From: Hydrogenophilaceae bacterium
GTDB taxonomy: Bacteria; Pseudomonadota; Alphaproteobacteria; Caulobacterales; Aquidulcibacteraceae
Assembly: GCA_013389015.1 (NCBI GenBank)
Contig: JACAEE010000156.1
Location: forward strand, 58,302 to 122,301
DNA: 64,000 bases
Direction: 5' to 3'
The notes under the pieces are model-generated. The model did not search any database and was not told the DNA's origin. It saw only the letters and a list, made by a program, of their open reading frames with translations. The translations under genes were made by a program, and so were the position numbers. This document shows, in pieces, positions 9,636 through 40,609 of the stretch (positions are counted from its first letter, which is position 1; every line of letters begins with the position of its first letter).

Positions 9636-9939
9636 CGAACGCCAACTACCAAACCTAGCGCCAAGCCTTCCAAAGCACTCAATGAAATCAAGCGCGTTGG
9701 AAGGGAGTGGCGACCCCGGAGAAACGAAACCCGGCGCATCACGGCAATACGTCAACGCGGCTCGCCTCATGCTCAGACTCGGCCCGCCATTGGACCCTCA
9801 GTCGGCTAAGGGAATAGCGAAGCCGCGCGGGGCCCACGTCCAAGGCCAAAGCTGGCGCCGGTATGAATTGTGGTGCAAGCGACGTCGTTTCCGATCCATC
9901 AAGCACCGACAGCCCACGCTGCGATATATGGTTGGCCGA

Positions 9940-14663: not shown

Positions 14664-14681
14664 GACGGTGCTTTCTCCGTG

Positions 14682-15650: not shown

Positions 15651-15656
15651 GGGGCT

Positions 15657-18838: not shown

Positions 18839-18845
18839 CGCCGCC

Positions 18846-19109
18846 TCACGCGCTGAAATAGGAAGGCTTGGCCATGGCGCGCGGCCAGGTGTCCAAGAAC
18901 CATGGATCGCGCGCCGAGGCGTAGGCGCCGGCGCCTTGGATGATCGCCCAGAGCGGAATGCCGATGAGAGGCTGTTGCAGGCCAAAGGCGATTGCGGCAG
19001 CGACCGTCGCGTTCATGATCGCAAAGGTGCGTGGGACGCCGGCAATGAGGAGCGGCCGCGTCAGCGAAGTGCGCAGTGGAATACGAAAGCCTTCTGGTTC
19101 TTCCAGCAT
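18846..19109 (-). CDS. trbD: TrbD/VirB3-like conjugal transfer protein
   Basis: MLEEPEGFRIPLRTSLTRPLLIAGVPRTFAIMN. Confidence 0.9.
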   Translation of the reverse strand: MLEEPEGFRIPLRTSLTRPLLIAGVPRTFAIMNATVAAAIAFGLQQPLIGIPLWAIIQGAGAYASARDPWFLDTWPRAMAKPSYFSA

Positions 19110-19429
19110 CAGAGCACCGACCCACCGGCGAAGCCGAAGAAGTCGAGGAAGAATGAGACGGCTGCGAACATGATGGCGATGCCGAGACCGACAAACGCGA
19201 GTTTTCGGATACCGCCGCCACCTTCGCCGAAAATAATGCCGACGCCGGAGATGATGATGGCGATGACGGCGGCAGCGCGCGCGACGGGGCCGGTGATGGA
19301 GTCGACCACTTGCTGCAGCGGCGCTTCCCACGGCATGCCCGAGCCGGACGCACAAGCCGGACCCGCCGCCGAGAGCGCCACCACGAGCACAGCGCTGGCC
19401 ACAACGATCTTCAAGTATGATGCTTTCAT
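19109..19429 (-). CDS. trbC: TrbC/VirB2-like pilin
   Basis: Signal peptide plus two hydrophobic segments; order in operon. Confidence 0.9.
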   Translation of the reverse strand: MKASYLKIVVASAVLVVALSAAGPACASGSGMPWEAPLQQVVDSITGPVARAAAVIAIIISGVGIIFGEGGGGIRKLAFVGLGIAIMFAAVSFFLDFFGFAGGSVL

Positions 19430-20367
19430 CGCTCAACTCCCTTGCAGCGGACGATTTCTTCGATGCGGCGCCCTTCAGCCGTGCGGGCCATGAAGACGAT
19501 GGTGTCGACCGCCGATGCGATGAGCCGTTCGGGACGCGCCGCGCCCGTTTCGAGGCAAAGATCTTCAAGCCGCAACAGTGCGTCGGCGGCGGAATTGGCG
19601 TGGATGGTCAACAGACCGCCCGGGTGACCGGTGTTCCACGCTTTCAGGACTTCGAGTGCGGCGCCGTCGCGCACTTCGCCCACGACGATCCGATCAGGCC
19701 TGAGGCGCAATGTCATTTGCACGAGATCGCGCATCGAGACTGGCGGGTGCGAGCGCTTGGTGAGGAGCTGCACCACATCGGCGCCAGCGCACTGCAGTTC
19801 GGCTGTGTCCTCTAGGATGAGGAGACGCGAAGCGGAAAAGTCGGGCTCGGCCAATAACGCATTGAGAAGCGTCGTCTTGCCTGACCCGGTGCCGCCGGCG
19901 ACCACGATGTTGCGCCGTGCAAGAATAGCTTGGCGAAGTTTCACAGCCTGCCCTGGCGAGGCGATGCCCGTGCGCACATAATCATCGAGCGTGTAGATCA
20001 GCTTAGGCCGCTTTCTGATCGCCAACACCGGCGCGCTGACGATCGGCGCGATGAGCGCCTGCACGCGCGCGCCGGAGCCGGGGAGGGTCGCGGCGAGGAA
20101 AGGGTGGTCTTCTGTGACGGTTTCGAAGGCTTCGGCCGCGAGCAGGCGGATTGCGGTCTCCCGCTCCGCTACGCTCAGGCGCGTGTCGGTCGTCTCAATT
20201 CCACGGCCGACGCGGTCGACGCGCATCTGGCCATCGCAATTGATCAGCACTTCGACGACGGCGTCATCGGCCAACGCCGCCTGCATCGCTGGGCCCAGCG
20301 CTTTTGTTAGGGATGCAAGGCGCCGCTCGGCGACGACGCGCTCTTGCGAAGGGGACATTGTGTTCAT
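19426..20367 (-). CDS. trbB: TrbB/VirB11-like secretion ATPase
   Basis: VVAGGTGSGKTTLLNALL, MTLRLRPDRIVVGEVRDGAALEVLKAWNTGHPGG. Confidence 0.95.
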   Translation of the reverse strand: MNTMSPSQERVVAERRLASLTKALGPAMQAALADDAVVEVLINCDGQMRVDRVGRGIETTDTRLSVAERETAIRLLAAEAFETVTEDHPFLAATLPGSGARVQALIAPIVSAPVLAIRKRPKLIYTLDDYVRTGIASPGQAVKLRQAILARRNIVVAGGTGSGKTTLLNALLAEPDFSASRLLILEDTAELQCAGADVVQLLTKRSHPPVSMRDLVQMTLRLRPDRIVVGEVRDGAALEVLKAWNTGHPGGLLTIHANSAADALLRLEDLCLETGAARPERLIASAVDTIVFMARTAEGRRIEEIVRCKGVER

Positions 20368-20813
20368 TCCGCCGCTCCATTCATGGCCGCGTCGGCGTCT
20401 GTGTGGCGGCCATGGGCTGCGTAGGGAAAGAGCGTCTGACCCGGCGCCATGCTCTCGGCCAGGAGTTCAAGAAAGGACTGGAAGCGCCGCTCAGCGACGG
20501 CATTGGTCGCGTCGAGCGTTTCCTCGCGCGGCGGCGGCGTGTGCTCAAGCCAAACACGAATGAAGAGCAGCAACGTCTCTTTGACGATGGCGATCTCGCG
20601 CTCGCGGACGACTTCGCGCTTTTCGAGGCGGTCCAACCGCATTTTTACCGTATCGGCGACCGCGTCATCCTTTTCATCGAGGAAGACACGCCGCAATGCA
20701 TCGGCCGCCGCGCGCGTCGTCGGCAGACCGCGAAGACGAGCTTCCAAGTCGAGCGCACGTGCGAGGTCTTGTTCGAGGTAGATCGTAATTTTCTTCTTGG
20801 GCCTGGCGCTCAT
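20364..20813 (-). CDS. CopG/ribbon-helix-helix-like protein of conjugation operon
   Basis: KKKITIYLEQDLARALDLEARLRGLPTTRAAADALRRVF; between traG and trbB. Confidence 0.65.
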   Translation of the reverse strand: MSARPKKKITIYLEQDLARALDLEARLRGLPTTRAAADALRRVFLDEKDDAVADTVKMRLDRLEKREVVREREIAIVKETLLLFIRVWLEHTPPPREETLDATNAVAERRFQSFLELLAESMAPGQTLFPYAAHGRHTDADAAMNGAAE

Positions 20814-22822
20814 GAGCCGGCCTCGTTCGCGGAATCGTCGGAGGCCGGACGCAGCGCGAAGCGAGAAGGCGCTGGCGCTGTAGTTGACGCTGTGGCGGAA
20901 TGATCGGGTTCGCTGTGCCCGTCCGGCTGGCTCGCCTCAAGCGCTGAAAGGAGATCGCCCTGTTGCTGGTCGGCGGCGGTGCGCGAGCGCAGCGGCGCCT
21001 TCCGGGAAAGAGCGCGAACAATCGCGCCATCGCGTCCGGGCGGCGTATCAGGTGCGCGGCGCTGCGCGAACCCGAGCGATGAGATTCCGGACCACGGCGA
21101 AGGCAGCGCGCGCCGGCGCGGTTCTTCAGGCGCAGGTAGCAGCCGCGCACGGAAGATCGGCTCCTCGTCGTAGCGCAGCTTCTCGGCGCGCAACGGTTTT
21201 GCGCCGGTGACGAAAATGAGTTCCTCGCGTTCGCTGAGGCGACGTACTTCAGAGGGTAGGAGAAGCGGGCGCCGTTCCTCACGATAAGTGATGGCGCGGT
21301 GATCGAGGCCGAACAGCTGGCGTTTGCCCGACCAGGTCTCTTGCGGTCGCGTCTCGAAGATGTCGCCGGCGAGCTTGGATACTGTCTCTGCGGTTTCGAC
21401 ATCGGTGGCGGCGAAGCTCGTGACGATCTGGCAATTGTCTAGAATTGTGTGATAGCGGCCATAGGCTTGCGTGACCTGATGCAGCGATTGGGTAACGAGG
21501 TAGGCACTGAGCCCATAACCGGCCATCGCCCCCATCGATTGTTCGAATACATCGAGCTTGCCGAGCTGTGGAAATTCATCGAGCAGGAGGAGGAGGTTGT
21601 GCTTCTTTTCGCGCCCGTCCGTAGCGCGCTCTTGATGCTCCATCAGAACGCGCAGCACGGCGCCGAAGACGAGCCGGATGAGGGGTTTCACCCGCTTTGC
21701 GTCATTTGGCGGCCAGCACAGATAGAGCGTTACAGGCTCATCCGCGCACATAAGGTCGGAGATGCGGAATGTTGATGTCGCCGTGTTCTGCCGCACGAGC
21801 GGATCGGCGAAGAGGCCTAGATAGCTTTCGGCGGTCGCTTTGATGCCGGCCCTGAGTTTCTCGTGATAAGCGGCATAAGAGTGAGCGGCGCGCTTGACTT
21901 CCGGGTGCGTTTCGGGCTCGCCGCTTGTCTCGTTCGTGCGATGGAGCGTCGCCTCCATCAGCTTCACCGTGTCATCGAAACGCGCCAGCAATTCGAAAAC
22001 GCGCGCCAGCGTTTTGCTCGGCAAGGGTTCAGCATAGACAACGTGAATGATGAGCCCGGCTAGGATTTGCTTGGCGGCGCGGTCCCAGAACTCCTGGAAG
22101 CGCCCGTCGCCATACGGGTCGGCGATTAGTTCGACGAGGTTCTGCACGTCGCGCACTTCTTGCGCGCCGGGCCGGATCGTATCCAGGAGATTGAGCCTGT
22201 CGGAGACTTCGTCCGTCGGCGCAAAGCGGATCACCGGACCGAGCTTGGCGCGCCAGCCCGCGGTGCCGGGAAAATCGACGCGGGCGTCGCCGGAATGAAG
22301 TTCGCCTTTCAGGTCCAAGGCGAGGATCGAGTGGGGAGCGGCGAGCAGCGTGGGGATGACGCTGCCGCGGGTCTTACCCGAGCGCGTGCCGCCCGTGAGC
22401 AAGAGATGATGTGGGCCATCGTAGGCGAGAATCTCGCCGCCGATCTTGCCGATGATGATGCCGCCTTCCGCGAAGAGGCCGGCCTCGCGCGCATCTCTCT
22501 TCCCGCCCCAGCTCTTGGCGCCGAACGGCCGCTGACTGGGATGAGGCGATTTCAGCACTAACAACAGGAGGATCGCGCCACTCAGGAATCCGGCGAACAC
22601 AATCAGTTTCGGCAGCGCAAAGGCGCGCGGGTATTCGCCGCTCCAGCGCTTCGACCAGCGCAGCACCGAGAAAGGGGTGTAGACAGGTGTCGAACCCAAC
22701 ACGAAAGCTGGCCTGCCGAGTGCGGCTTGGTAGTTGAAGGTCTGGGCGCACGTTTGGGTCGCTGCGAAGCACGCGAGCACGCTGATTGAAGCGGCCGCAA
22801 TGCCACCCCACACCAATCGCAT
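20810..22822 (-). CDS. traG: TraG/VirD4-type coupling protein
   Basis: HHLLLTGGTRSGKTRGSVIPTLL, LLLLLDEFPQLGKLDVFEQSMGAMAGYG. Confidence 0.95.
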   Translation of the reverse strand: MRLVWGGIAAASISVLACFAATQTCAQTFNYQAALGRPAFVLGSTPVYTPFSVLRWSKRWSGEYPRAFALPKLIVFAGFLSGAILLLLVLKSPHPSQRPFGAKSWGGKRDAREAGLFAEGGIIIGKIGGEILAYDGPHHLLLTGGTRSGKTRGSVIPTLLAAPHSILALDLKGELHSGDARVDFPGTAGWRAKLGPVIRFAPTDEVSDRLNLLDTIRPGAQEVRDVQNLVELIADPYGDGRFQEFWDRAAKQILAGLIIHVVYAEPLPSKTLARVFELLARFDDTVKLMEATLHRTNETSGEPETHPEVKRAAHSYAAYHEKLRAGIKATAESYLGLFADPLVRQNTATSTFRISDLMCADEPVTLYLCWPPNDAKRVKPLIRLVFGAVLRVLMEHQERATDGREKKHNLLLLLDEFPQLGKLDVFEQSMGAMAGYGLSAYLVTQSLHQVTQAYGRYHTILDNCQIVTSFAATDVETAETVSKLAGDIFETRPQETWSGKRQLFGLDHRAITYREERRPLLLPSEVRRLSEREELIFVTGAKPLRAEKLRYDEEPIFRARLLPAPEEPRRRALPSPWSGISSLGFAQRRAPDTPPGRDGAIVRALSRKAPLRSRTAADQQQGDLLSALEASQPDGHSEPDHSATASTTAPAPSRFALRPASDDSANEAGS

Positions 22823-23022
22823 ATGAAGCGTCCGCTCCCACATGCTGGAAGCGTCTCGCCCATTTCCTGGCGACGCCACATGTTGCAACTCTTTCGAGGC
22901 GCACCGGCACACAGGCGCCGACTCGCGTGCGAGTTTCCTCACGCGCGTTGGTGTTAAGCGCTCAATTGGGGCAGCGAACGCCAGGTGATTCGGCGCTCCA
23001 AATCGGCTATACTCCGGGTTGC

Positions 23023-23757
23023 ATGCGCGAAAACCTCATCGGCGCCGAGATGATCGCTTTTGCTGCCGCCTGCGATGCGGCGGCGACACTGGACGAGCTC
23101 AATGGCATCTGGCGCCGGCGCTTGGTCGACGCCGGGTTCAACTTCGTTGCTCTCGGCGTGCACGCCGACCCGTTGCGGCCCGAGCGCACCGCTTATGTCT
23201 TCCAGAACTATCCCGAGGAATGGGTCGCTCACTTTTCGGCGCAGCGTTATCATCTCGTCGATCCGGTCTTCCGCGCAGCGGAGGCAGGGGCCGAGGAGTT
23301 CGTATGGACCGATCCGGATTTCCTGCAGCCGCTGTCTTGGCGTCAGCGCCGCATCCTCAATGAAGCGCGCGAGTTCGGTCTCCGCCATGGGCGGACCCAT
23401 AGATTGGCGTCCATTCTCCCCTTTCGCGCCTCCGCATCCCTGGTGACGAGCGAGCCGGACATGCCGGAAGAAGCGTACGCAGCCGGCAAGCTGATTAATG
23501 TCATCGTGCACCACCGCGCAGCGCAATTGTGCATCGCGGCCGCGCCGCGTTTTGAGGAGCTGCGCCGGCGCGAGCGGCAATGCCTGGAACTGTGCGCACA
23601 CGGCCTCGTCGACGCCGATATTGCGCGCGGTTTGGGACTGAGTGTTGCAACTGTCCGGCGCCACATCGAGCGCGCGCGGGTTCGGCTGGGCGCGAGCACA
23701 CGCATTCAGGCGGTGGCGCGTGCGATCGCTTCTGGGCAAATCAAGCCGATCGCTTGA
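23023..23757 (+). CDS. LuxR-family AHL-responsive transcriptional regulator (1)
   Basis: N-terminal AHL-binding pattern (W..HF....Y...DPV......FVW) and C-terminal LuxR HTH (RERQCLELCAHGLVDADIARGLGLSVATVRRHIERARVRLG). Confidence 0.9.
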   Translation: MRENLIGAEMIAFAAACDAAATLDELNGIWRRRLVDAGFNFVALGVHADPLRPERTAYVFQNYPEEWVAHFSAQRYHLVDPVFRAAEAGAEEFVWTDPDFLQPLSWRQRRILNEAREFGLRHGRTHRLASILPFRASASLVTSEPDMPEEAYAAGKLINVIVHHRAAQLCIAAAPRFEELRRRERQCLELCAHGLVDADIARGLGLSVATVRRHIERARVRLGASTRIQAVARAIASGQIKPIA

Positions 23758-23915: not shown

Positions 23916-24644
23916 ATGCAAGCCCGCATCAATTGGGCGTTCGCGGAGGTCTGCGATCGCGCCACAAGTGTTGACGAACTTCATGTCGCGTTCATGCGTG
24001 AAGTCCGCGAACTGGGCTTCACTTATGCCGCGTGCGCCTCTCACGTAGATCCGTTGCGACCGCCCGCGGACGCCGTGATGATGGTGGACTATCCACTCCC
24101 ATGGTTGCAGCGCTTCAGTGACCAAAACTATGCCAAGCGCGATCCCGTCTATTGGAGGGCGCGTCGTCAAACACTGCCGTTCCAATGGAGCGACCGGGTC
24201 TTTCGCGCAGGCCTGGCGGCCGATCAAATTCGGATCTTGAACGAAGCGGCCGAGGCTGGCCTCACCGATGGCATAACAATACCCATACATGCGCCCGACG
24301 CTTTGCCAGCCTCATGCTCGCTGGTCATCGGCCCAGAGGGGGTGGACCCGCTCAATGCGCAGAAGGCCACCTGGTACGGCGTCTATGCGCACGAATGCGC
24401 GCGGCGACTGCGGCTGGCGGGGTTGCCGACCAAACCCGTTCTGAGCCCGCGCGAGCGTGAGTGTGTGCAGCTGTTGGGCCAGGGCAAGGACGATGGCGAC
24501 ATGGCCGTCATACTGGGCCTCAGCGAGCACACCGTGCACAACATAGTCCGCCGCGCGATGCACAAATACGGCGTCGCAAGCCGCGTGCAGGCGTTCGTGC
24601 GCGCGCTCAAAGACGGGCAGATCAGGCTCGAAGATGTGTGCTGA
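23916..24644 (+). CDS. LuxR-family AHL-responsive transcriptional regulator (2)
   Basis: W..RFSDQNYAKRDPVY...FQW...; HTH SPRERECVQLLGQGKDDGDMAVILGLSEHTVHNIVRRAMHKYG. Confidence 0.92.
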   Translation: MQARINWAFAEVCDRATSVDELHVAFMREVRELGFTYAACASHVDPLRPPADAVMMVDYPLPWLQRFSDQNYAKRDPVYWRARRQTLPFQWSDRVFRAGLAADQIRILNEAAEAGLTDGITIPIHAPDALPASCSLVIGPEGVDPLNAQKATWYGVYAHECARRLRLAGLPTKPVLSPRERECVQLLGQGKDDGDMAVILGLSEHTVHNIVRRAMHKYGVASRVQAFVRALKDGQIRLEDVC

Positions 24645-24666
24645 GATCACCTAAAGCGGCGCTGTC

Positions 24667-24688
24667 AATGGGCACGTCCGTGCCCATT
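24667..24688 (+). promoter_or_regulatory. lux-box-like perfect palindrome upstream of luxI
   Basis: AATGGGCACG-TC-CGTGCCCATT: 10-bp perfect arms, 2-nt centre, 55 nt upstream of luxI ATG. Confidence 0.65.
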
Positions 24689-24743
24689 TTCTACGGGTGC
24701 AGAATGCGCATGCTCTGGCCGTCCTTTGACGACCGGAGCCCCC

Positions 24744-25373
24744 ATGATCCACATCATCACCGCTGAGAACCGGCGCCATTATCATCATGCGCTGATGGAG
24801 ATGCATCGTCAGCGCAAAGAGGTGTTCATCGATCAGATGAAATGGCGCTTGGAGGAAAGCGCCGGCATCGAGATCGACGCGTACGATTGTCCGGAGGCGA
24901 TCTATCTTGTCGAAGCGGCGGCGCCGCGCGCCCCGGTTACGGGCTCAGCGCGCCTCCTGCAGACCGATCGCCCACATCTATTGGCCGATCACTTCCGTTT
25001 CTTGTGCGATCATGAACCGCCGACGGGTCTCGATGTTTGGGAGGCGACACGGTTTTGTCCCGCGCCTGACACGGGGCAGGGCCAACCGCGCCATGATCTG
25101 CTTGCGCGCATTATCGCGGGTATCATGGAAACGGCTCTCATCTTCGGCATTGAGCGCGTGACGTTTGTCGCCAACGCAGCGCTGACACCGCTCGCTGCCA
25201 AGGCTGGCTGGGATGCGCAGCCGCTAGGCCCCGCGCGCCGGGTGGGCTGCGATCGGCTTACCGCTTTTGTCGCCGCGATCGACCAGCAAGGCTTGAAGCG
25301 CGTGCGCCAAACCAACGGCATCAAGACGCCGGTCACCCGATTTCTCGGCGGCGATCTCACTCAGGCGGCGTGA
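24744..25373 (+). CDS. luxI: LuxI-family acyl-homoserine-lactone synthase
   Basis: RQRKEVFIDQMKWRL...EIDAYDCPEAIYLV...GSARLLQTDRPHLLADHFRFLC...VWEATRFCP. Confidence 0.94.
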   Translation: MIHIITAENRRHYHHALMEMHRQRKEVFIDQMKWRLEESAGIEIDAYDCPEAIYLVEAAAPRAPVTGSARLLQTDRPHLLADHFRFLCDHEPPTGLDVWEATRFCPAPDTGQGQPRHDLLARIIAGIMETALIFGIERVTFVANAALTPLAAKAGWDAQPLGPARRVGCDRLTAFVAAIDQQGLKRVRQTNGIKTPVTRFLGGDLTQAA

Positions 25374-25385
25374 AGGAGAAACACC

Positions 25386-26285
25386 ATGATGAAAGCTTCC
25401 AACGTCGTGCCGTTTCCGCCTGCGGACCAAGATCACCTGTCGATCCTGGAACGCGACGGATTTGTCGTGCTTGAAAACCTGCTCGACGAGCGCCGCTGCC
25501 GCAAGCTCGCGGAAGAGCTCGAGCCGTGGCTTGAAGCGACGCCCAAGTGCGAAGGTGATTTCTACGGTTGGAATACGACGCGCGTCGGCGGACTTCTCTC
25601 GAAGGCGCCAAGCTCGCGCGATCTGGTCATGGACCCCTACATTCTGGCGATCGCCGAGGCATTGCTCAGGCCCAATTGCGATTGCATCCAACTCAATCTG
25701 ACCCAAGCCGTTCGGGTGCATGGCCAAGAGCGCCCGCAAGCGCCGCACCGTGATGAGGAGATGTGGCCCTGGCCGACCAGCGGGCGCCACTGGCTCTTGA
25801 ACGTCATGTGGGCTGTGAGCGATTTCACCGAGGAAAATGGCGCGACGCGCCTTTGGAAGGGTAGCCACCGCGCGGCGCTCGATCGCAGCGTCGATCCCGC
25901 TGATAGCGTGCCCGGCGCGATGAAAGCAGGCTCGGCGCTCCTCTTCTTGGGTTCGCTGACGCACGGCGCTGGTCAAAACCTCACAGCGCTTCCACGCACC
26001 GGTGTCATCGTCAGCTATTGCTTGGGCTGGCTCAAGACATATGAGAACCAGTTCCTGGCCTATCCGCGCGAGGTCGCTGCTTCCTTCCCAACAGACCTCC
26101 AACAGCTGATCGGCTATCGCATACACCGGCCCAATCTTGGCGGTTGGGAGGGGCAGGACCCGATCAATTGCCTGCGCGAGCAGCGTGGGTTCATGCCCCA
26201 TGTCGATGCGCTGACGCCGGAGATCGAGGCGCAGCTCAAGGAGCATTATGCGGCGGGCGGCGCGCGAGGCGAGGATGGCGCTTGA
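25386..26285 (+). CDS. phytanoyl-CoA dioxygenase (PhyH)-family Fe(II)/2OG oxygenase
   Basis: DGFVVLENLLDERRCRKLAEELEPW, HxD motif PHRDEEMW and distal LTHGAGQN. Confidence 0.85.
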   Translation: MMKASNVVPFPPADQDHLSILERDGFVVLENLLDERRCRKLAEELEPWLEATPKCEGDFYGWNTTRVGGLLSKAPSSRDLVMDPYILAIAEALLRPNCDCIQLNLTQAVRVHGQERPQAPHRDEEMWPWPTSGRHWLLNVMWAVSDFTEENGATRLWKGSHRAALDRSVDPADSVPGAMKAGSALLFLGSLTHGAGQNLTALPRTGVIVSYCLGWLKTYENQFLAYPREVAASFPTDLQQLIGYRIHRPNLGGWEGQDPINCLREQRGFMPHVDALTPEIEAQLKEHYAAGGARGEDGA

Positions 26286-26886
26286 TCTGCGTCCAGGCGA
26301 ACGCGTCTACCAGGAGATAAAACAAGCAATCTTGTCCGGCGAGTTTGTGATCCTGCAGCGTCTGGACATCGACAAGCTCGCAGCTCAGTTCGGCGTAAGC
26401 GCAACGCCGGTCCGGTACGGTTTGGCCATTCTGGCGGCGGAGCGATTGGTCAAGCTAAACTCGTCGCGTGTCTATCAAGTCGCGTTTTGGTCGGAACAGG
26501 AGCTGCGTGAGCTTTACCAATGGCGCCAACGTCTGACGAAATGGGCCTTGCAATCGTACGTACCCGAAGCTGCGCCGGCGATGTCGCCGGACGCAGACTA
26601 TGCCGGCGTGTATTTGACGGTGATGGGGCATATCGACCGCAACGCGAATACTGAGGCCCGGCGTGCTGGCCGGTCCGCCGATGAGCGCCTTCAACAGGCG
26701 CTGCGCGCCGAGGACGACGCTCTGCCAGGCGCGCTTGACGAGTTGCACCGAATTGCCGCCTTACTCGATCGCGGCGGCGCGCCACTCGCCAATAAGCTGC
26801 GCAGATATTTTGATCGACGTATCTCTCATTGTGCCCTCATAAGAAGTGCGGCGCACGCCAAGGCGATGCCCAACAACGGCGCCTGA
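26275..26886 (+). CDS. GntR-family transcriptional regulator
   Basis: ALDLRPGERVYQEIKQAILSGEFVILQRLDIDKLAAQFGVSATPVRYGLAILAAERLV; start overlaps phyH stop. Confidence 0.88.
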   Translation: MALDLRPGERVYQEIKQAILSGEFVILQRLDIDKLAAQFGVSATPVRYGLAILAAERLVKLNSSRVYQVAFWSEQELRELYQWRQRLTKWALQSYVPEAAPAMSPDADYAGVYLTVMGHIDRNANTEARRAGRSADERLQQALRAEDDALPGALDELHRIAALLDRGGAPLANKLRRYFDRRISHCALIRSAAHAKAMPNNGA

Positions 26887-26996: not shown

Positions 26997-27122
26997 ATGC
27001 GTGAAGACATCGAACGCCAAGAAGACATCGTGGACCTCGGCGCGGCGACCGAAGTGACGCAAGGGATCTATGATCCCGTGAAGAAGGAAAACCTCGTCAC
27101 GCCGCAAGCGCGCGACTTCTGA
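26997..27122 (+). CDS. lasso peptide precursor A1: MREDIERQEDIVDLGAATEVTQ|GIYDPVKKENLVTPQARDF
   Basis: 41-aa ORF below ORF-track cutoff; GGAG Shine-Dalgarno 6 nt upstream; leader Thr at -2, core Gly1, Glu9; directly upstream of lasso B/C genes. Confidence 0.85.
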   Translation: MREDIERQEDIVDLGAATEVTQGIYDPVKKENLVTPQARDF

Positions 27123-27186
27123 TCGTCCGTCTGCGGCGCGGACGACGTCGTCTGCGCCGCAGATCAGTAGTTCAAGGAGCATTGCG

Positions 27187-27318
27187 ATGGAAACCCGCGA
27201 AGAGCTGGATCACGATGAGATCGTGACCGACCTGGGATCTGCGAGCGAAGTCACGCTCGGCGTCTGGGATCCCATCTTCAAGGAAAACTTCGTCACGCCG
27301 CATATGCGCGACATGTGA
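27187..27318 (+). CDS. lasso peptide precursor A2: METREELDHDEIVTDLGSASEVTL|GVWDPIFKENFVTPHMRDM
   Basis: 43-aa ORF below cutoff; AAGGAG 7 nt upstream; paralogous to A1 with conserved DLGxAxEVTxG junction and G1/E9. Confidence 0.87.
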   Translation: METREELDHDEIVTDLGSASEVTLGVWDPIFKENFVTPHMRDM

Positions 27319-27330
27319 CCTCATGAGGAA

Positions 27331-27357
27331 CGCCGGGCGCGGATCGCGCGCCCGGCG
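27331..27357 (+). terminator. intergenic hairpin between lasso A2 and B
   Basis: CGCCGGGCGCG-gatcg-CGCGCCCGGCG, 11-bp perfect stem with no following T-run: attenuator or mRNA stabiliser candidate. Confidence 0.6.
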
Positions 27358-27365: not shown

Positions 27366-28010
27366 ATGACAACCTACCAATTGAGCCCGCACGTTCGCGC
27401 ATGCAGGGATGGTGGTTACATCGTCTTCCTCGATTTGCGTTTCGATCGCTATTGGAGCGTCCCTGTGCGAAGCGCTCCCGACATCGTTGGACTCGTAGAG
27501 ACGGAATGTGAGCATCGGACCGGCGCGCGGCTCATTGAGCTGGGCCTGATTGAGCCGGTCGGGCAGTGTCCCGCGCCCTATGGGTCACGTACGGCCGCGC
27601 CGGAGCAGAAGCTTCTCTCCACGGAGCAATCTAAGGCGTCGCCTTTTGAGTATGGCCAGTGCGCGTCAGCTTGCTGGTGGACCGCGGGCACGCTCTCCCG
27701 CCGCAGATTGGATCTGACGCTTGCGCGTCTGGCCGAGCTTAAAGTTCGCGATGCAGAGCGCGAGGCGGACACGCCACATCTGATTGGCGTGTTCGAGAGC
27801 TTTCGACCCTGGTTTCCGCGCAGGCGTGTGTGTCTCTTCGACGCCGTCGCGCTGTTTCGCTTCATGGTGATGCGTGGGCTGAAACCGGACATCGTCATTG
27901 GCGTGCGCACGGCGCCGTTCGCCGCCCATTGCTGGGTCGAGTGGCAAGGTTGGCTCGCCGGCGACAGTTCCGATCACTGCGCGTCTTTCACGCCGATCGC
28001 GTGGGTATGA
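27366..28010 (+). CDS. lasso peptide leader protease B (RRE N-terminus fused to transglutaminase-like B2 domain)
   Basis: PqqD/RRE-like N-terminus; RVCLFDAVALFRFMVMRGLKPDIVIGVRTAPFAAHCWVEWQG with catalytic Cys/His pattern. Confidence 0.9.
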   Translation: MTTYQLSPHVRACRDGGYIVFLDLRFDRYWSVPVRSAPDIVGLVETECEHRTGARLIELGLIEPVGQCPAPYGSRTAAPEQKLLSTEQSKASPFEYGQCASACWWTAGTLSRRRLDLTLARLAELKVRDAEREADTPHLIGVFESFRPWFPRRRVCLFDAVALFRFMVMRGLKPDIVIGVRTAPFAAHCWVEWQGWLAGDSSDHCASFTPIAWV

Positions 28011-28013: not shown

Positions 28014-29813
28014 ATGTCCTTCATTGGCTTTCGCTGGACGCCGGGAGAGCGCGATGGGGCGCGCGCGGCGCGCGCGCTTGCCGAACGCCTAAGCGATGGC
28101 GCCGCGTCTCTCCTCGACTGGCGCGGGCTCGTGCTGTGTCATCATGGAACGGGACCGCTGGAGGTGTTGCCCCATAATATGGGCTTTGTCTTCGGCGAAC
28201 GTTTCGGGCGCGGGCCTGATCCATCGCCGCCATGCGAGGCGTGCATTGATCCCACGCCAACATGGATCGCCGAGCGATGGGGCGCTTATGTCGCCGTCCT
28301 GATCGATCGCGGCTTTGACATAGTTCGCGTGCTTCGCGATCCGAGCGGCGCGCGCGCTTGTTTCATTTCTGAGATAGGGGGTGTTCGCATTTTCTTCTCC
28401 GACGCCGAAGACTTCCTTCGTTTAGCGCCTGATACCCGCGCCGACCTTGGGTTCATTCGCGCGTTCTTGCGCTATCCGCCGCATCTCGGCCGGCGTACGG
28501 GACTTGAAGGAGTTGAGGAACTCGCACCCGGAGAGTGCGCGATCTATCCGCGGCATGGTTGGACGATTGAAGCGGCGTGGACGCCAAGGGAGTTCGCGCG
28601 CGCCAGAAAGCCGCTTGACTGGAGCGAAGGCAAAGAGGCGTTGCACACCGCGGCGGACGCGACCGTGAAGGCGTGGGGCGGACGGCACGGGCGGATCGCG
28701 CTTCGGCTGTCCGGCGGTTTCGATTCATCGGTCATGCTGGGATTGCTACGCCGCAACACCGAAGCGGAGATCACTTGCGTCACGGAATATTGGGAAGGCG
28801 CGCCTGAAGGCGACGAACGCGCTCATGCGCGCGCGGTGGCGGCCGCAAATGGAACAGAGCTCAAGGAACTGCGCTTCGATCCCGCGCGGGTAAATTACGC
28901 GCTTTGCTTGAATGCGCCGCTTACGGCCAAGCCGACGCTAACGTTGCTCAGTCTGGGCAATCGCGATCTCACATCCTTCTACGACGAACTTGGCGTGAGC
29001 CTTGTCACCTCGGGGCAGGGCGGAGATCATCTCTTCCAGCGCAGCCGCACGCCTTGGATCGCAGCTGATGCGCTTTGCGATCGCCTGCATCCCAAGGCGC
29101 TTATGGACATCGCGCTCGACACCGCCCGGCTTACCGGACAACCCGTCTGGGATGTGTTTGCCGCCATGATCGTCGGCGCGGCACGGCTGAAGTCGCCGGT
29201 TCGACCTCACTCCAATGTGATGGGCGCCCTCAAGGCGGCAGGGGACGAGGCTGAGGCGCCGGCCGACCACGCGTGGCTTGCCAAACTGCGATGGGCGTCA
29301 CCTGCGCGCGCGCTCAGAGTTCATCAACTGCTGCAGGCGCTCAGCTATTTTGACGAAGGCGCTCTCCCTGGCGGCGGTCGCACGCACCCGCTGCTGCTTT
29401 CGCAACCGATCGTGGAAACCTGTCTGCGTATCCCGCCCTATGTGATGACGGCAGGCGGCAAGGAACGTGCACTCGCGCGCGCAGCCTTCGCGGATCTCGT
29501 TTCTCTCGATGTAGCGCGCCGTGTCACCAAGGGCGAGACCACGCGCTATTTTGCGGCCGTCCTTGCGGCCAACGAAACTTGGATTCGCGACCTCCTGTGC
29601 GGAGGGAGGCTCGTTGAATATGGCGTCGTCGATTCCGATGCGCTTAGGCGCGCTCTCGCTGGCGGTTGGTTGCAGGACGGCATGGCGGCGGATGGTCTCT
29701 ATGCACTCATCGCCGCTGAATGTTGGCTTAGGAACTTGGAGGCAGCGCGTGAACGCGCCGCCTCAGCGTTAGCGGCGGCCAGCGCGATCGCGCAAAGCAC
29801 GCCAACGGGCTAA
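28014..29813 (+). CDS. lasso cyclase C (asparagine synthetase-like)
   Basis: PP-loop RLSGGFDSSVMLGLL, SGQGGDHLFQR; 3 nt after B stop. Confidence 0.92.
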   Translation: MSFIGFRWTPGERDGARAARALAERLSDGAASLLDWRGLVLCHHGTGPLEVLPHNMGFVFGERFGRGPDPSPPCEACIDPTPTWIAERWGAYVAVLIDRGFDIVRVLRDPSGARACFISEIGGVRIFFSDAEDFLRLAPDTRADLGFIRAFLRYPPHLGRRTGLEGVEELAPGECAIYPRHGWTIEAAWTPREFARARKPLDWSEGKEALHTAADATVKAWGGRHGRIALRLSGGFDSSVMLGLLRRNTEAEITCVTEYWEGAPEGDERAHARAVAAANGTELKELRFDPARVNYALCLNAPLTAKPTLTLLSLGNRDLTSFYDELGVSLVTSGQGGDHLFQRSRTPWIAADALCDRLHPKALMDIALDTARLTGQPVWDVFAAMIVGAARLKSPVRPHSNVMGALKAAGDEAEAPADHAWLAKLRWASPARALRVHQLLQALSYFDEGALPGGGRTHPLLLSQPIVETCLRIPPYVMTAGGKERALARAAFADLVSLDVARRVTKGETTRYFAAVLAANETWIRDLLCGGRLVEYGVVDSDALRRALAGGWLQDGMAADGLYALIAAECWLRNLEAARERAASALAAASAIAQSTPTG

Positions 29814-31799
29814 CCGGCCAGGTTCATCTGGGTCTGCTCTTTCGATGCCGCGCAGCCAAAAGTCCAGCCAGTCCATGGCGCGCGTCTGCGCCGCCAAGAG
29901 CTGACTCGGACGCCATTTGATGTGATAGGCGCCGGGATAGACGTAAGTCTCGACGGGGCGACCCAGTTCTTCCAGCCGCGTCGCCAATGGAAATCCCATG
30001 ATGGCTTCGCTCTCAGCCAGGTTCATAAGGAGGGGCGCGCGAATCCGCTCCGCATGGAGCACTGTCGCGTTGCGCGCCCACCAGGCCGCCCACGGATCGT
30101 CGCCATCGGCGTTGGGGCCGCGCATGCCTTCGCTCAGAAGGCTTTGCCGGAAAGCGCGCGAGCCAAGCGTCCATGCCGTGGTATCGGTGGGTTGCGTGCT
30201 GGCGACGGCCACGGCGAACAGGTCGGAATTGGTGATCGCCCAATAGAGTGTCTCGGCGCCGTCGCTTAGCCCCGTAATGCCGATGCGGCGCGGATCGCTG
30301 AGGCCGCGCCGGTCAAGCTCAGCGAGCATGGCTTCAAGCGCGGACTGCTTCATCAGATTCTCGGAATTATCTAACGCCGTTCGCTGATCGAGCTCCGCTT
30401 GCGGAAGCGATGCCTCGGCGCCGCGCCATTCGGGACGATCGACACTCAGCACGAAGTAACCGCGGCCGGCCAGCGGCAAAATCGGATACTCGCCGCCGAC
30501 GCCGCCGCGCAAAAAGCCGCGCGAGCGGTACTGCACCACAATAACGGGATAACGACGTCCGGCTCGATAGTTTGCGGGGAAGACGAGATGGGCGAAAGAG
30601 GCGTTGCCGTAAGTGTCGTGGACTTCAAGAGTCTCAATGCGTGGTTGGTCGAACGCCCGCCAATCGGGATTCGGATCGTAAAGTTCATCGAGGTCGCCCG
30701 TATCAACGTCGATGGAGACAATGCGGCGCGGCTGGATGGGACTTTCCTGCAGGCAGACCAGCCGGGCGGCCGCGCGCCCGCAGCCAAACAATTCTTCGTC
30801 CGCTCGTCGGATGCGGCGTACCGTGTTCGCCCGCCAGTCCCATGCATAAAGCGCGGTCAGACCGCGCCCGTGTCCTTCCATCCGGCGAAACACGATTCGA
30901 TCGGCGAAAATCCACGCGCCGAGCATGCGTCCGCTGCAGGCGGGATCCGCGCACATCACGATATCGTGGTCCCTGGCGGCGGCGTAGTAGAGGCCGAGCG
31001 CGGGGGTCGAGGCTTGATCGCCGGCGATGCGCGGCGAGATCCAGGCAAATGCGTCGCCAGTTCGATCATGCGCGATAGCATTGGGCGGCGCTGGATGGGG
31101 TGGACGGACGTTGAGTTGCTCGCTCTCCTCGGGCGATGCCGCCCGCGCTGCGCGCGTTGCTGCGTTGACGACAAGTTGCACGTGCGCCGCATCGACAGTC
31201 GCGCGCGGTGTGAGGCTCGCGTAAGGCGCGAAGAAGTCGTCGGGGTGGAAGCCATAAGTCGCCGCACGTGAATAGGCAGCGCTTAAGGCGTCGCGTGATG
31301 CAGCTGTTTCCACAGCGAGATGGGTGTCGTCGAGCCATACAAAGCGAAGGACTTCACCAGGCCCGTCGACGAGCAACTGAGCGGCCGCGCCGTCCGGCGA
31401 GGCGCGCCAGAGTTCGGCGCGCCCATCACGTTCAGCGATGTAAGCAAGATAGCGCCCACCGGGCGCCCAAACCGGCGCCCGGTCCGCCGCGGCGCCGGTC
31501 GGGCCATACGGGGTATCGCGCAAGATGATATCGCCTGCGTCGGCGATTTCGCGTGGCGAACCGCCCGTGGTCGGCATGACGAGAAGCCGATGGCGATAGT
31601 CATTCTCCGGCACGCGCGTTTCGCGGGCGAAAACGGCCAGTGTTTGGCCATCGGGCGAGATCGACAGGCCGCCGCGATAGTCGCCCAGTTCGATGAGCGC
31701 GAGGAGGTCTTCCGCAGTTGGGGGGCGCGCCGCGGCTTGGCCTGAAAAGAGGAGGGTGATCCCCACCAGTGCAGCGGCGCGCGTGAAGCGCGTTACCAA
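29769..31799 (-). CDS. S9 prolyl-oligopeptidase-family lasso peptide isopeptidase (AtxE-like)
   Basis: Signal peptide; IGITGLSDGAETLYWAITNSDLFAVAVAS (GxSxG), C-terminal YPGAYHIKWRPSQLLAAQTRAMDWLDFWL; location beside lasso B/C and TBDT. Confidence 0.88.
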   Translation of the reverse strand: MVTRFTRAAALVGITLLFSGQAAARPPTAEDLLALIELGDYRGGLSISPDGQTLAVFARETRVPENDYRHRLLVMPTTGGSPREIADAGDIILRDTPYGPTGAAADRAPVWAPGGRYLAYIAERDGRAELWRASPDGAAAQLLVDGPGEVLRFVWLDDTHLAVETAASRDALSAAYSRAATYGFHPDDFFAPYASLTPRATVDAAHVQLVVNAATRAARAASPEESEQLNVRPPHPAPPNAIAHDRTGDAFAWISPRIAGDQASTPALGLYYAAARDHDIVMCADPACSGRMLGAWIFADRIVFRRMEGHGRGLTALYAWDWRANTVRRIRRADEELFGCGRAAARLVCLQESPIQPRRIVSIDVDTGDLDELYDPNPDWRAFDQPRIETLEVHDTYGNASFAHLVFPANYRAGRRYPVIVVQYRSRGFLRGGVGGEYPILPLAGRGYFVLSVDRPEWRGAEASLPQAELDQRTALDNSENLMKQSALEAMLAELDRRGLSDPRRIGITGLSDGAETLYWAITNSDLFAVAVASTQPTDTTAWTLGSRAFRQSLLSEGMRGPNADGDDPWAAWWARNATVLHAERIRAPLLMNLAESEAIMGFPLATRLEELGRPVETYVYPGAYHIKWRPSQLLAAQTRAMDWLDFWLRGIERADPDEPGRLARWRALRDRAGRR

Positions 31800-34768
31800 C
31801 GCTGCCTCACTTCGACCATGACCACGCGTCCCACCGGCGAGGCGTTCAGCGTGTCGAAACCCATGCCAATCGGATTGTTGGCGAATGGAGGATCCTCGTC
31901 AGTGAGATTGCGGACGTCGAGCGTAATCTCTGTCCCCGCGCCGTCATCGCCGACCTGGAAGTGGCGTGAGATCCGCGCGTCGAACGTCGTCCACGATGAG
32001 ATGTCACGAGCCGGCGTGCTGAACGAGTCGCGGTAGTCGTCCGTGTATTGCATCGACAGCGCGCCACGCCACGCGCCGGTGTCGAGCGCGACGCCCGCAC
32101 GGGCGCGCCAATCCACCGGGTTGAGCATGGTATCGAGCACGTCGGCGCTCGCGAGCGACGGATTGTTCTGTCGCGAGAACTGCAGCAGGCCGCTTGCCGT
32201 GGCGAACACCGAAAGTTCGCCGAAGCCCGTGTCGAAGGCATAGGACGCGGAGAGGTCGACGCCGAGGACGCGCAGCGAGGCGAGGTTGGTTAGCCGCTCG
32301 TCCCAGATGACTTCAATCCCATCCGGCGGAATGACGCCGGATACATCGTCCGTCAGTCCTAGATAGAAGGCGATCTGATCGGGCGTTGGGTTGCGAATGA
32401 AATAGCCTTCGTATTGTTCGGGGTTCTGGAAGGCGTCGAGAATAAAGCCGGGGATTGCGATGCGGTTCGAGAAGGTAATGTCGAAATACGTGGCCGAGAG
32501 TCGGAATCCATCGAGCCAAGACGGCGCAAGTTCAAAGCCCGCAGTCCAAGTCTCGGCTTCTTCTGGTTCAAGCTCACGATTGGCGCCGAGAATTTGCAGG
32601 AGGCCGGTGGATCCGTTGGTGGCGTCAGGATCCAGGAATCCCGGAAGCGAACCGATAGTGGCTCCCGTGCCGCCCAGCATCTGGGCAAACTGCGGTGCTT
32701 TGAAAGACTCACCCCAAGTCGCTCGCAAAGTGAGATCCGTAAACGGTGTCCATTGCAGGCCGATCTTCGGCGTCGTTGCGTCGCCGAAGTCAGATGAGTC
32801 CTCGCGGCGTACGGAGAGCGACAAGGACACGCTGTCGAACACTGGCAAAAACGCCTCGGCATAAATCGCGTCGGTGGTGCGCTCGCCAGGCTCTTGGGTG
32901 AACGGATTGGTGATTAGGCCCGAACCAGAGGTCTCGGTTCGGTCGATGCTGAAGGTTTCGTCGCGTCGTTCGATACCCAGCGCGACACGCGCGCGACCGC
33001 CGGGCAAGTCGAACACACCGCCATCAGCGCGCAGTGCGTAACCCGTCAGCTCTGAATCGGTCTCGATGTGCTGGCGCATTGTGAGTGCCGTCAGCGCCGC
33101 GGCGGGCGTATCGCCGCCGTCGCCAAACGGGTTGAACGCTATTGAAGGATCGGAACTGGCAAGCGCTGCGCCGATCGCCCCAGAATCGGCGATGTTGGTG
33201 TTGTCCACCTCGTCGGCGTGAAAGCCGTAAGAGATGCTCGCCTCGACGCGCCAATCCCAGCGCAGCGCGAATTCCAGACCTGCCGCCGTGGCGATGGTGT
33301 CGGACTGTGTATCCGTCATCAGCGGACCGAGATCGTCGCCGAAGAAATAGGCGACGTAGATGTCGCCATCTCCGGCAAACAAGCCGTTCTGTTGACGATA
33401 GTAGTTCGTCTCGGGAACGGCGACGACACCGCCGAGCTGCGCCTTCTCGGCGTGAGCCTCGCGTTGTGACGCCAACACATCGACGAAGAGGCGGACGTTC
33501 GTATTGAAATCGTAGCTGAGCGAGCCAAACAGCGAATGGCTCTGCTGCTCCGGCAACAAGAAGGAGCCTTCATTGCCGTTTTGCAGATTGAGCACGCCGT
33601 TGAGCAGATCGCCTTCGCTCAGCGTAAGGCCGTCCTGACCGTCCGGAATTGCCAGTGTGACGGGCGCGCCGCCCACCAGAATGATGTTGCCGGGTGAAGC
33701 CGTGAAGCGGGAAAAGTTCGTGCCGCCGAACGGCGCGAGATCTGTGTTTGCGGCGTAATCGCGGTCTGAAGCAGAGAGCGCGTCGCGCTGGCGATACTCA
33801 TAACCGGCGATCAACGAGCCGCCCGACCAGTCCGCGCCCAGAACATGAGAAAAGCCGGTCTCATTCATGCCGTCGGCGACGCTGAAGCGAGCGCTCGTTT
33901 CGGGATGGTCGAGCGTGCGCCGAAGCAGGACGTTCACCACGCCGCCCACCGCGTCGCTGCCATACGTGGCCGATGCGCCGTCAGCGAGCACCTCGACGCG
34001 CTCAATCGCGGCCAAAGGGATGGCGGAGATATCGACGAAGTTGCCGAGGCCCGCTGGCGCGAGGCGGCGCCCGTTTAGCAGAGTAAGAGTTGCGTCGGAG
34101 CCCAAGCCGCGAAGATCGACGGTCGAACCCAAGGCGATGTTGTTGCCGGGCGCTGTTGAGTTGAGCTGCGTGAGTTCACCTTGGCTGCCTGGGAAAACCT
34201 GCGGGAGCGTTTGCAGCAGGTCTTGAATGGTCGTGCGACCGCTCTCTTCAATGTCGCCGCGATCAAGTGTGAGCAGGTTGGCGCCCGCAGGCACGGCCCC
34301 GCGAATGCGCGTGCCGGTGACGACGATCTCTTCTTCGCTTTCGCTGACCGCGGCGCTAGATGTCTGCGTGGTTTCAGCGCCGCTCGCGGCGCCCTCGCGC
34401 TGGGGGCGGGAAGATTGCTCCTGTGCGAGCACCAGATTGCCGCCGTTGATGCGGCCATTGTAGCCCGAGTGCGCGAGCAGGAGATCGAGCGCCTGCTGGC
34501 GCGTGTACGACCCGCGCAGGGCAGGGGAGGAGAGGCCGCGCAGGTCGTCTGAGAAGTAGAGCGCGTTCACGCGCGCCTGCCGCGCGTATTCGCTCAAGGC
34601 GCTGCTGAGAGGCTGGGCGGCGATGTCGAACTCAATGCGCTCATCACTGATTTGCTGCAGGTCTTGCGCATGCGCCGGTTCGGCGGCGACGGCGCCCATC
34701 GCGCTGAGAATAAGAGCGGTCGCCAGCTTTCGCCGGCGGTCATGCCGTTTCGTCGTCTTGCCCTTCAT
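31793..34768 (-). CDS. TonB-dependent receptor with N-terminal STN (secretin/TonB signalling) domain
   Basis: FDIAAQPLSSALSEYARQARVNALYFSDDLRGL (STN), EEEIVVTGTRIRG (TonB box/plug), C-terminal beta-barrel; overlaps isopeptidase start. Confidence 0.93.
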   Translation of the reverse strand: MKGKTTKRHDRRRKLATALILSAMGAVAAEPAHAQDLQQISDERIEFDIAAQPLSSALSEYARQARVNALYFSDDLRGLSSPALRGSYTRQQALDLLLAHSGYNGRINGGNLVLAQEQSSRPQREGAASGAETTQTSSAAVSESEEEIVVTGTRIRGAVPAGANLLTLDRGDIEESGRTTIQDLLQTLPQVFPGSQGELTQLNSTAPGNNIALGSTVDLRGLGSDATLTLLNGRRLAPAGLGNFVDISAIPLAAIERVEVLADGASATYGSDAVGGVVNVLLRRTLDHPETSARFSVADGMNETGFSHVLGADWSGGSLIAGYEYRQRDALSASDRDYAANTDLAPFGGTNFSRFTASPGNIILVGGAPVTLAIPDGQDGLTLSEGDLLNGVLNLQNGNEGSFLLPEQQSHSLFGSLSYDFNTNVRLFVDVLASQREAHAEKAQLGGVVAVPETNYYRQQNGLFAGDGDIYVAYFFGDDLGPLMTDTQSDTIATAAGLEFALRWDWRVEASISYGFHADEVDNTNIADSGAIGAALASSDPSIAFNPFGDGGDTPAAALTALTMRQHIETDSELTGYALRADGGVFDLPGGRARVALGIERRDETFSIDRTETSGSGLITNPFTQEPGERTTDAIYAEAFLPVFDSVSLSLSVRREDSSDFGDATTPKIGLQWTPFTDLTLRATWGESFKAPQFAQMLGGTGATIGSLPGFLDPDATNGSTGLLQILGANRELEPEEAETWTAGFELAPSWLDGFRLSATYFDITFSNRIAIPGFILDAFQNPEQYEGYFIRNPTPDQIAFYLGLTDDVSGVIPPDGIEVIWDERLTNLASLRVLGVDLSASYAFDTGFGELSVFATASGLLQFSRQNNPSLASADVLDTMLNPVDWRARAGVALDTGAWRGALSMQYTDDYRDSFSTPARDISSWTTFDARISRHFQVGDDGAGTEITLDVRNLTDEDPPFANNPIGMGFDTLNASPVGRVVMVEVRQRW

Positions 34769-34945
34769 GTTTCCCCCTTCCGCGCTTGAGCGCGTGTTGT
34801 CGGGAGAAAGACACTTCAGTCCAAAAAGTGCGCCACGCATGCGCGAACAATGTTTGCGGAAGAGGCGCTAGCCTGCGGACCTGCGCTCTCCGATGATCGC
34901 AACCCTCACTGGCCTACAGAAGGCTAAGCCCCTAAGTTTTTCCGC

Positions 34946-37815: not shown

Positions 37816-38802
37816 TTATGAGCTTCGCGACAGCACGATGCGGCGGTCGCCTTCACGATGCGCTTTGAGATTGAGGTTCGATGAGACCAGGGCAATGAAG
37901 GCTTCTGGATCAGCGGCCACATAACCGCCGATGCGCATCTCGCCCAGTGCGGGGTCGGCGAGTTCGAAAGTCCAGCCGGTTTGGCGCGAGACTTCGGCGA
38001 TCGCTTCGTTGAGCGTCTCGCCGTCGAACGCCAGCATGTTGTCGCGCCACGCCAGACGGCGCGGAATCGCTTCCGCCGCGATCTCGACCAGCTCGGCGGC
38101 GCCATCCCTCAAGACGATCTCCTGATTGGCGCCGGCGGTGACGCTGTTGCGGCGCGCGCTGAAGAAGCCTCTATCAACCGCTCCAGACACAGAACCACGC
38201 AAGACCGTTGTGCGCACTTCGCCTTCGCTGATGCGTACGACGAAGGAGGTTCCGAGAACGGTGATGTCGCCCTCGGGGGTGCGCACCACGAATGGGCGCT
38301 CGGGATCGTGCGCAATGTCGAAGAGGGCGTAGCCACGGGCGAGGTCGACGCTGCGCTCGGTGTTGCTGATCGCGATCGCGGCTTCGCCGGCGCCTGAGAG
38401 CGTGATGGTGGAGCCGTCGGCGAGGGTGATGGTGCGCACTTCGGCCGGGGCCGTGGTGTAGTGTTCGGAAGGCGCGAAAGGGGTCGGCGCACGGGTGAAC
38501 CAGACGCCCGCGCCGATCGCCAGCAGTGCGCACGCGGCGATGGCGGCAGCGGGAAGCCAGCGGCGGCGGCTTGGTGTCGGGCCGGTGTCGTTGGCGGCGG
38601 CGCGGCCCTTGAGATGCTGCAGCGATTGAACCGCACCCCACGCGCGCTCCAGCTTGGCGTAGGCGGGTGGATGGTCGGGATCGGAATCGAGCCAGGCCTG
38701 GAAATCTTGGCGGTCGCGCTCTGTCGCATCGTGCGCCTTGATGCGGACGATCCAGCCGCTGGCTTCGCGCTCGGCTCGTGTCAGGGTTTGCCGGGTAGGC
38801 AT
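37816..38802 (-). CDS. FecR-family anti-sigma factor
   Basis: TRAEREASGWIVRIKAHDATERDRQDFQAWLDSDPDHPPAYAKLERAW, TM, FecR domain, C-terminal STN-like. Confidence 0.92.
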   Translation of the reverse strand: MPTRQTLTRAEREASGWIVRIKAHDATERDRQDFQAWLDSDPDHPPAYAKLERAWGAVQSLQHLKGRAAANDTGPTPSRRRWLPAAAIAACALLAIGAGVWFTRAPTPFAPSEHYTTAPAEVRTITLADGSTITLSGAGEAAIAISNTERSVDLARGYALFDIAHDPERPFVVRTPEGDITVLGTSFVVRISEGEVRTTVLRGSVSGAVDRGFFSARRNSVTAGANQEIVLRDGAAELVEIAAEAIPRRLAWRDNMLAFDGETLNEAIAEVSRQTGWTFELADPALGEMRIGGYVAADPEAFIALVSSNLNLKAHREGDRRIVLSRSS

Positions 38803-40018: not shown

Positions 40019-40137
40019 ACGACATTGGCGTCGCCCGCTGCGCGAGGCCGGGCTCTCGTCGCTTCGCGATCGAGCCGCGTTCGCGTCTCGACCCTGCGGG
40101 GCTTCGATCCCTGACGCGGATGCGTCCGCTGCGGGCC

Positions 40138-40554: not shown

Positions 40555-40587
40555 GGCGAGTAGCAATCACATGAACGACGTTTGGAG

Positions 40588-40609
40588 AACGGGCACGTTC
40601 GTGCCTATT
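40588..40609 (-). promoter_or_regulatory. second lux-box-like palindrome
   Basis: AACGGGCACGTTCGTGCCTATT, 19/22 identical to the luxI-upstream palindrome, 34 nt upstream of the 40554 start. Confidence 0.55.

Follow-up and report, generated by a model that had tools for sequence, protein, structure and literature searches.

We analysed a window, by which we mean the whole 64,000-nucleotide stretch of DNA under study, and observed luxR, luxI, phyH and gntR genes directly upstream of twin lasso-peptide precursor genes, an arrangement common to the complete Terricaulis-type loci that we compared. The head of the locus lies on the plus strand and begins with two regulators of the AHL receptor type, luxR1 (22954-23757) and luxR2 (23916-24644), both with Pfam Autoind_bind and GerE matches. 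luxR2 occurs in 22 of the 22 aligned lux-lasso loci of the window's family, and luxR1 is an extra luxR beside the T4SS genes, present in the T4SS-flanked loci L002, L032, L033, L041 and L088. They are followed by luxI, encoding an acyl-homoserine-lactone (AHL) synthase (24744-25373; Pfam Autoind_synth, 70.8 bits), by phyH, encoding an Fe(II)/2-oxoglutarate dioxygenase (25386-26285; Pfam PhyH, 99 bits), and by gntR, a GntR-type regulator gene at the junction of head and body (26248-26886; Pfam GntR, 49.8 bits). The conserved start of luxI is the ATG at 24744, and an in-frame TTG is also present at 24726. The R/F/W, ExD..D, SARL and WEATRF motifs of LuxI and the HRD...H...R motif of PhyH are invariant in the 22 loci. 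Upstream of luxI we observe a lux-box-like palindrome, GTCAATGGGCACGTCCGTGCCCATTTTC (24664-24691, plus strand; 20-mer at 24668-24687), in which nine of ten pairs are palindromic. The same type of site, GTCAAT(A/G)GG-N10-CC(C/T)AT, recurs some 60-80 bp ahead of luxI across the loci of the family. At five or fewer mismatches the site is usually unique in the ~20 kb of each locus; shuffled-motif controls at this threshold gave means of mostly 0.03-0.6 per locus, and 0.77 in the 64-kb window. The Pfam matches of the two luxR genes, luxI, phyH and gntR all exceed their cut-offs. The head thus has what identifies a LuxI/LuxR quorum system, namely an AHL synthase adjacent to an AHL-binding LuxR and a conserved palindrome before luxI.

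A second lux-box-like palindrome lies at 40589-40608 on the minus strand and, read on its two strands, shows 3-4 mismatches when compared with the luxI box. It fronts an ORF for a small predicted membrane protein (40138-40566, minus strand) without Pfam match; this ORF could be a further gene of the element under quorum control. In locus L043 a second such palindrome is present at position 1632, before an ORF of about 200 aa (923-1651 region) that is divergent from fecR; its HTH-like C-terminal stretch looked like that of an excisionase-type protein, but this is an impression only.

The head genes are co-directional with the first precursor gene, and gaps of 12, -38 and about 110 bp lead from luxI through to it. 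The original prediction had placed twin short ORFs with 19-residue cores at 26997-27318, and these are confirmed by translation, by their neighbours and by recurrence in four genomes. A1 (plus strand, ATG 26997 to stop 27122) encodes 41 aa, with leader MREDIERQEDIVDLGAATEVTQ and core GIYDPVKKENLVTPQARDF (27063-27119); A2 (plus strand, ATG 27187 to stop 27318) encodes 43 aa, with leader METREELDHDEIVTDLGSASEVTL and core GVWDPIFKENFVTPHMRDM (27259-27315). An upstream GTG at 26943 gives A1 as a 59-aa ORF, and the conserved start is ATG 26997. Shine-Dalgarno-like stretches, GGAGAG for A1 and AGGAG for A2, accompany the two genes. A hairpin between A1 and A2 (27130-27163, plus strand) has 17-nt arms that are 94% complementary and, by alignment, kept in four orthologous loci; another, between A2 and B (27331-27357, plus strand), has perfect 11-nt arms and a 5-nt loop. 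Thr(-2) precedes Gly1 in both precursors (TQ/G...E9 and TL/G...E9, the slash marking the predicted cut), and Glu9 is the sole acid among positions 7-9 of either core. A leader ending in Thr-x, a core opening with Gly1 and Asp/Glu at positions 7-9 mark a lasso precursor, and both peptides have them. Asp4 as ring acceptor is ruled out by ring size, and we agree with the earlier judgement that it is too near for a lasso ring. Against NCBIfam NF033522 (lasso_benenodin) the leaders of A1 and A2 scored 29.4 and 21.2 bits, both under the curated cut-off of 33 bits, so membership of the benenodin family is not met. Because the match is below the cut-off and confined to residues 1-27, we describe the leaders as sharing their type with NF033522 and not as scored members. 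The further claim, that the pair are lasso precursors with a predicted nine-residue Gly1-Glu9 ring, is supported by the leader family, Thr(-2), the B, C and E genes and conservation. Since the leaders match, B, C and E are adjacent and the pair recurs in four genomes, A1 and A2 are beyond chance. These findings support two putative lasso-peptide precursors as judged from sequence, with cyclisation, threading and the cleavage site being inferred.

The twin pair is present in the window, L002, G011 and G046, with gene order constant and the A1 core identical in 19 of 19 residues; precursors in relatives were located by pattern. L002 is JANPZV010000005.1, from a MAG named Terricaulis, and is apparently the same contig as G053. 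Among loci of about 79-83% overall DNA identity, the A1 core shows no amino-acid and only 1-2 nucleotide differences, and the A2 core has as many as four residue differences. Synonymous sites of the A1 core (27063-27119) are nearly unchanged too, at 1-2 nt of 57, for which an RNA-structure constraint or gene conversion is possible. More divergent kin cores are GIYDPIRKENFVDPEARDLQ and GVWDPLLKETHETPESFPM in L023 and GLPDDILKENYVEPEARDE in L006, and the distinct Terricaulis-type cores found carry an acid at position 8 or 9. The cores had been claimed to be unlike known lassos. No PDB chain matches the core by sequence, and the core strings were not found in PMC papers, a search that left out subscription papers, preprints and RODEO precursor tables; these results favour the claim without proving novelty.

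Downstream of the precursors lie the genes expected of a lasso pathway. B (27366-28010, plus strand) encodes a leader peptidase with an N-terminal leader-binding region and a transglutaminase-like protease whose Cys/His are invariant (Pfam Transglut_core3, 64.7 bits; NF033537, lasso B2, 67.4 bits against a cut-off of 33). The lasso cyclase gene C (28014-29813, plus strand) matches Pfam Asn_synthase over the cut-off and carries an LSGGFDSS motif, with SGGxDS invariant across 22 loci. B and C beside a precursor are the enzyme pair that defines a lasso-peptide cluster. The gene E (29769-31799, minus strand), whose 3' end overlaps that of C tail to tail, encodes a lasso peptide isopeptidase of the Atxe2 family (NF033523, 575 bits against a cut-off of 400) with GxSDG and H invariant in the 22 loci. 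Next come a TonB-dependent receptor (31793-34840, minus strand; Pfam STN below the cut-off, Plug and TonB_dep_Rec_b-barrel), a fecR-type anti-sigma factor (37816-38802, minus strand; Pfam FecR, 73 bits) that adjoins the receptor in most loci of the window's family, and a fecI-type ECF sigma factor (38816-39316, minus strand; Pfam Sigma70_r2 and Sigma70_r4_2). With an Atxe2-family E, TonB receptor, FecR, ECF sigma factor and GntR, the cluster qualifies as isopeptidase-type, the standard layout of which has GntR before the precursor together with E, TonB and sigma/anti-sigma genes (PMC9266682). The cluster resembles the astexin, benenodin, caulosegnin and sphingopyxin clusters, which have NF033522 leaders, in leader type, Thr(-2), B, C, E, TonB, sigma/anti-sigma and GntR, but differs from them in its cores, in its luxR-luxI-phyH head and in the exchange of the body together with the receptor plug and barrel. 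In L002 the C gene (8649-10442) is split over frames, reflecting either a sequencing error or decay. In loci L064, L067, L070, L072 and L073 of family f2, luxR-luxI is divergent from lasso B-C and TonB matches occur in most; an isopeptidase or phyH match was absent there at the cut-off used.

The association of lux and lasso genes is not confined to the window. A tblastn comparison of the window's genes with some 20 kb of surrounding DNA at each of the family's lasso loci showed the head upstream of lasso genes in L002, L032-L036, L038-L051, L091, L093 and L100; L037 is cut short by a contig end. Many of the compared genomes are MAGs, and the assemblies of L036 and L046 consist of about 20 and 10 contigs, respectively. 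Across 398 Caulobacterales genomes, luxI (PF00765) lies within 10 kb of the B gene at 46 of 129 lasso-B loci, against a chance expectation of about 0.7 pairs calculated from gene counts and one average genome size, and this difference excludes chance linkage, although shared ancestry within families means that the 46 loci are not independent events. By family label, linked loci number 25 of 32 in f1, 17 of 30 in f2, 4 of 15 in f5 and none of 52 in f3. Six of the seven unlinked f1 loci sit at contig ends, and L101 is a true exception. The lux and lasso genes of f2 and f5 run divergently, which means that the linkage comes in two or more arrangements. Outside Caulobacterales, at class level, none of 40 B loci is near luxI, and the plasmid collection gave only five weak B matches, none of them close. 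Genome G034 holds both L101, a lasso body without lux head (B at 9391), and L092, an 'empty' luxR-luxI-phyH-gntR head (luxI at 9752, gntR to 11849) followed by unrelated genes; neither head nor body therefore strictly requires its partner. No lux box was found directly before A1 at five or fewer mismatches, so for AHL to control the lasso genes, transcription would have to read through the gap of about 110 bp or GntR would have to act as a relay. Nor was a second box found at this threshold in f2 and f5, in which luxI and the lasso genes are divergent. AHL-dependent control of the lasso genes thus remains a prediction inferred from gene arrangement.

Among 22 loci, distances correlate at 0.77-0.88 within the head (luxR, luxI, phyH) and at 0.83-0.95 within the body (B, C, E, TonB), but at only 0.24-0.36 between head and body, with gntR intermediate. 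The exchange breakpoints can be observed in the DNA itself. L036 and L046 share about 92.5% DNA identity over 7.2 kb on the left, as far as the phyH/gntR region. Across A1, A2, B, C, E and most of the receptor no DNA similarity is detectable, and on the right identity returns to about 90% over the 3.1 kb that begin at the 5' end of the receptor gene and run through fecR. The two loci have unrelated cores (GIVQRFAEESTGLPDYRD and GIPKVPFEESTGQMDHRD versus GGVDTEIEDREPLF and GGVDHLMEDRDPLM). Conserved DNA flanking unrelated alleles on both sides, as in this pair, is the signature of an exchangeable specificity locus. L038 and L049 share an 8.3-kb stretch of 96.0% identity that stops where phyH ends, with similarity lost beyond it, and L034/L047, L039/L042 and the window/L041 show a sharp left break of the same kind. 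L044 and L093 represent the reverse case, with bodies 82.6% identical and heads diverged. Since exchange is seen in both directions, rate variation alone is insufficient as an explanation. Sliding correlations place the right-hand boundary within the receptor: residues 1-180 follow the head (partial r 0.48-0.53) more than the body (0.08-0.26), and residues from about 200 onward follow the body (0.63-0.89) and not the head (~0). As the Pfam STN match, itself below the cut-off, covers residues 71-113 and Plug starts at 166, the signalling portion remains beside the sigma/anti-sigma pair already in place and the portion that binds the ligand moves with the lasso. For the C-terminal half of GntR, considered as a sensor travelling strictly with the lasso type, the sliding correlations were intermediate. 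Near-identical heads bear unrelated bodies, the reverse also occurs, and the receptor plug and barrel track the enzymes of the lasso pathway; together with the isopeptidase and the receptor barrel, the lasso genes therefore behave as an exchangeable specificity cassette. In L041, three copies of a fecR 3' fragment lie beside the swapped body (16479-19392), and two of these have copies of the window's 40027-40118 sequence adjacent; they may be scars of repeated exchange.

Genes for TrbI/VirB10, VirB4, VirB11 and a TraG-type coupling protein flank the cluster (12190-22942, minus strand) and an ArdC antirestriction gene is found at 50937-51860; with conjugative T4SS genes and ArdC present, an integrative conjugative element or a plasmid probably carries the locus. 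The cluster could then be an ordinary isopeptidase-type one whose lux genes belong to the element and regulate transfer only. VirB4/VirB11/TraG-type genes also flank L002, L032, L033, L041, L091 and L093, and lux-phyH-virB without lasso genes has been described in sphingomonads, where topology T reads luxR-luxR-luxI-phyH-X-virB (Gan et al. 2015, PMC4288048). The window shares with this topology two luxR, luxI, phyH and adjacent T4SS genes, but here GntR and the lasso cluster come after phyH, and lasso genes are unmentioned in that paper. Among our own loci, L083-L087 and L096 carry luxR-luxI-phyH, and L098 luxI-phyH without luxR, all of them lacking lasso genes within the stretch seen; in L083-L087, luxI is 46-50% identical to that of the window. 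However, the lux-phyH-gntR-lasso order persists in more than 12 loci without a T4SS gene in the ~6 kb seen upstream, luxI lies near lasso B in two further families with different orientation, and the linkage is far above chance. Lux genes as mere passengers of a conjugative element were downgraded, most family loci lacking T4SS genes in the flank seen, and we consider this explanation quite unlikely. The partner of PhyH is a related question. PhyH could be a lasso-tailoring hydroxylase, in which case its adjacency to luxI would reflect peptide modification; phyH stands beside lasso genes in the family loci compared, its Fe/2OG motif is retained, and CanE, the Fe/2OG enzyme beside the canucin genes, sets a precedent for a lasso hydroxylase (PMC9266682). 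Unlike CanE, PhyH tracks luxI (distance correlation 0.83 across 22 loci) and not B, C and E (0.31-0.36), it is about 89-92% identical across pairs whose lasso bodies and cores are replaced, and it accompanies luxI in the lasso-free loci listed above. Its occurrence without lasso genes and its tracking of luxI led us to doubt and downgrade a tailoring role, which we regard as very unlikely; that PhyH modifies the AHL or an AHL precursor is a guess.

We therefore favour, as a probable reading, a quorum-headed isopeptidase-type lasso cluster exchanged as a specificity cassette, with the following proposed mechanism. At high density AHL would accumulate, and AHL-LuxR would raise luxI-phyH-gntR transcription and in turn, by read-through or via GntR, that of the lasso genes. 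B would cut the leaders after Thr-x and C would close the Gly1-Glu9 ring, giving two 19-residue lassos that would exit the cell and be taken back by the matching receptor barrel. The N-terminal domain of the receptor would signal to FecR/FecI, and E would open the re-imported lassos. Within this bacterial family, the block from part of gntR through A1-A2-B-C-E to the receptor plug and barrel is swapped as one specificity cassette, with the head on one side and the receptor signalling domain plus sigma/anti-sigma pair on the other as its constant parts. Re-uptake, signalling and privacy are, like cyclisation and AHL control, inferred steps of this proposal. Ligand and receptor barrel are co-inherited, and selection on specificity therefore follows, but co-inheritance alone does not decide between signal, carrier and weapon. 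It is possible, and we put it forward only tentatively, that the quorum-gated lassos are private, type-specific signals or type-specific shared goods, imported and sensed by none but cells bearing the matching barrel, with whole ligand-enzyme-receptor cassettes passing between strains like pherotypes. The lassos could instead be antimicrobials of narrow spectrum, triggered by density and aimed at close relatives; E and the receptor would then serve in self-protection or re-uptake, and exchange would reflect toxin-immunity turnover. This would fit the co-inheritance of diversified cores with E and the barrel, as in arms-race loci, and microcin J25 is a lasso antibiotic. We nevertheless hold this to be unlikely: between A and the receptor of the window we noted neither a dedicated immunity gene nor an McjD-like ABC exporter, and receptor signalling is indicated by the STN domain, which is retained, and by the anti-sigma and sigma factors. 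The lassos could also be siderophore-like carriers of unknown cargo, a high-density shared good from which barrel specificity excludes cheaters. The exchange pattern resembles that of pyoverdine/FpvA types. The TonB receptor, FecI/FecR layout and isopeptidase fit carriage, as discussed in PMC9266682 and PMC11006600. With no known cargo and no obvious shared metal-binding motif in the cores, carriage seems somewhat unlikely.

The cluster type is thus known, and the luxR-luxI-phyH head and the cassette exchange provisionally constitute its new part. A link of lasso peptides with luxI, AHL quorum sensing, Terricaulis or Hyphomonadaceae is not described in the literature that we found, and the novelty of both this link and the cores is provisional because subscription papers and preprints lay outside the search. 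The f3 loci, whose cores look caulonodin-like and which have no luxI within 10 kb at any of 52, may explain why the link has gone unreported, assuming that f3 corresponds to the well-studied lassos. The agr, comQXP and pyoverdine/FpvA systems are allelic signal-receptor loci. By analogy, the present locus may resemble them in that a variable ligand, its maturation enzymes and the specificity region of its receptor are inherited as a block beside conserved signalling parts. It differs from them in its RiPP lasso ligand, TonB receptor and isopeptidase, so that the likeness is one of analogy and not of homology. A lux head combined with exchange of ligand, enzymes and barrel, while the signalling domain stays, speaks for selection acting on ligand-receptor specificity, which bears on why many Alphaproteobacteria make lassos alongside a lasso-destroying enzyme. 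The exchange pairs are ready-made natural swaps for specificity, and block swapping behind a constant quorum unit hints that communication or uptake between related bacteria may be private.
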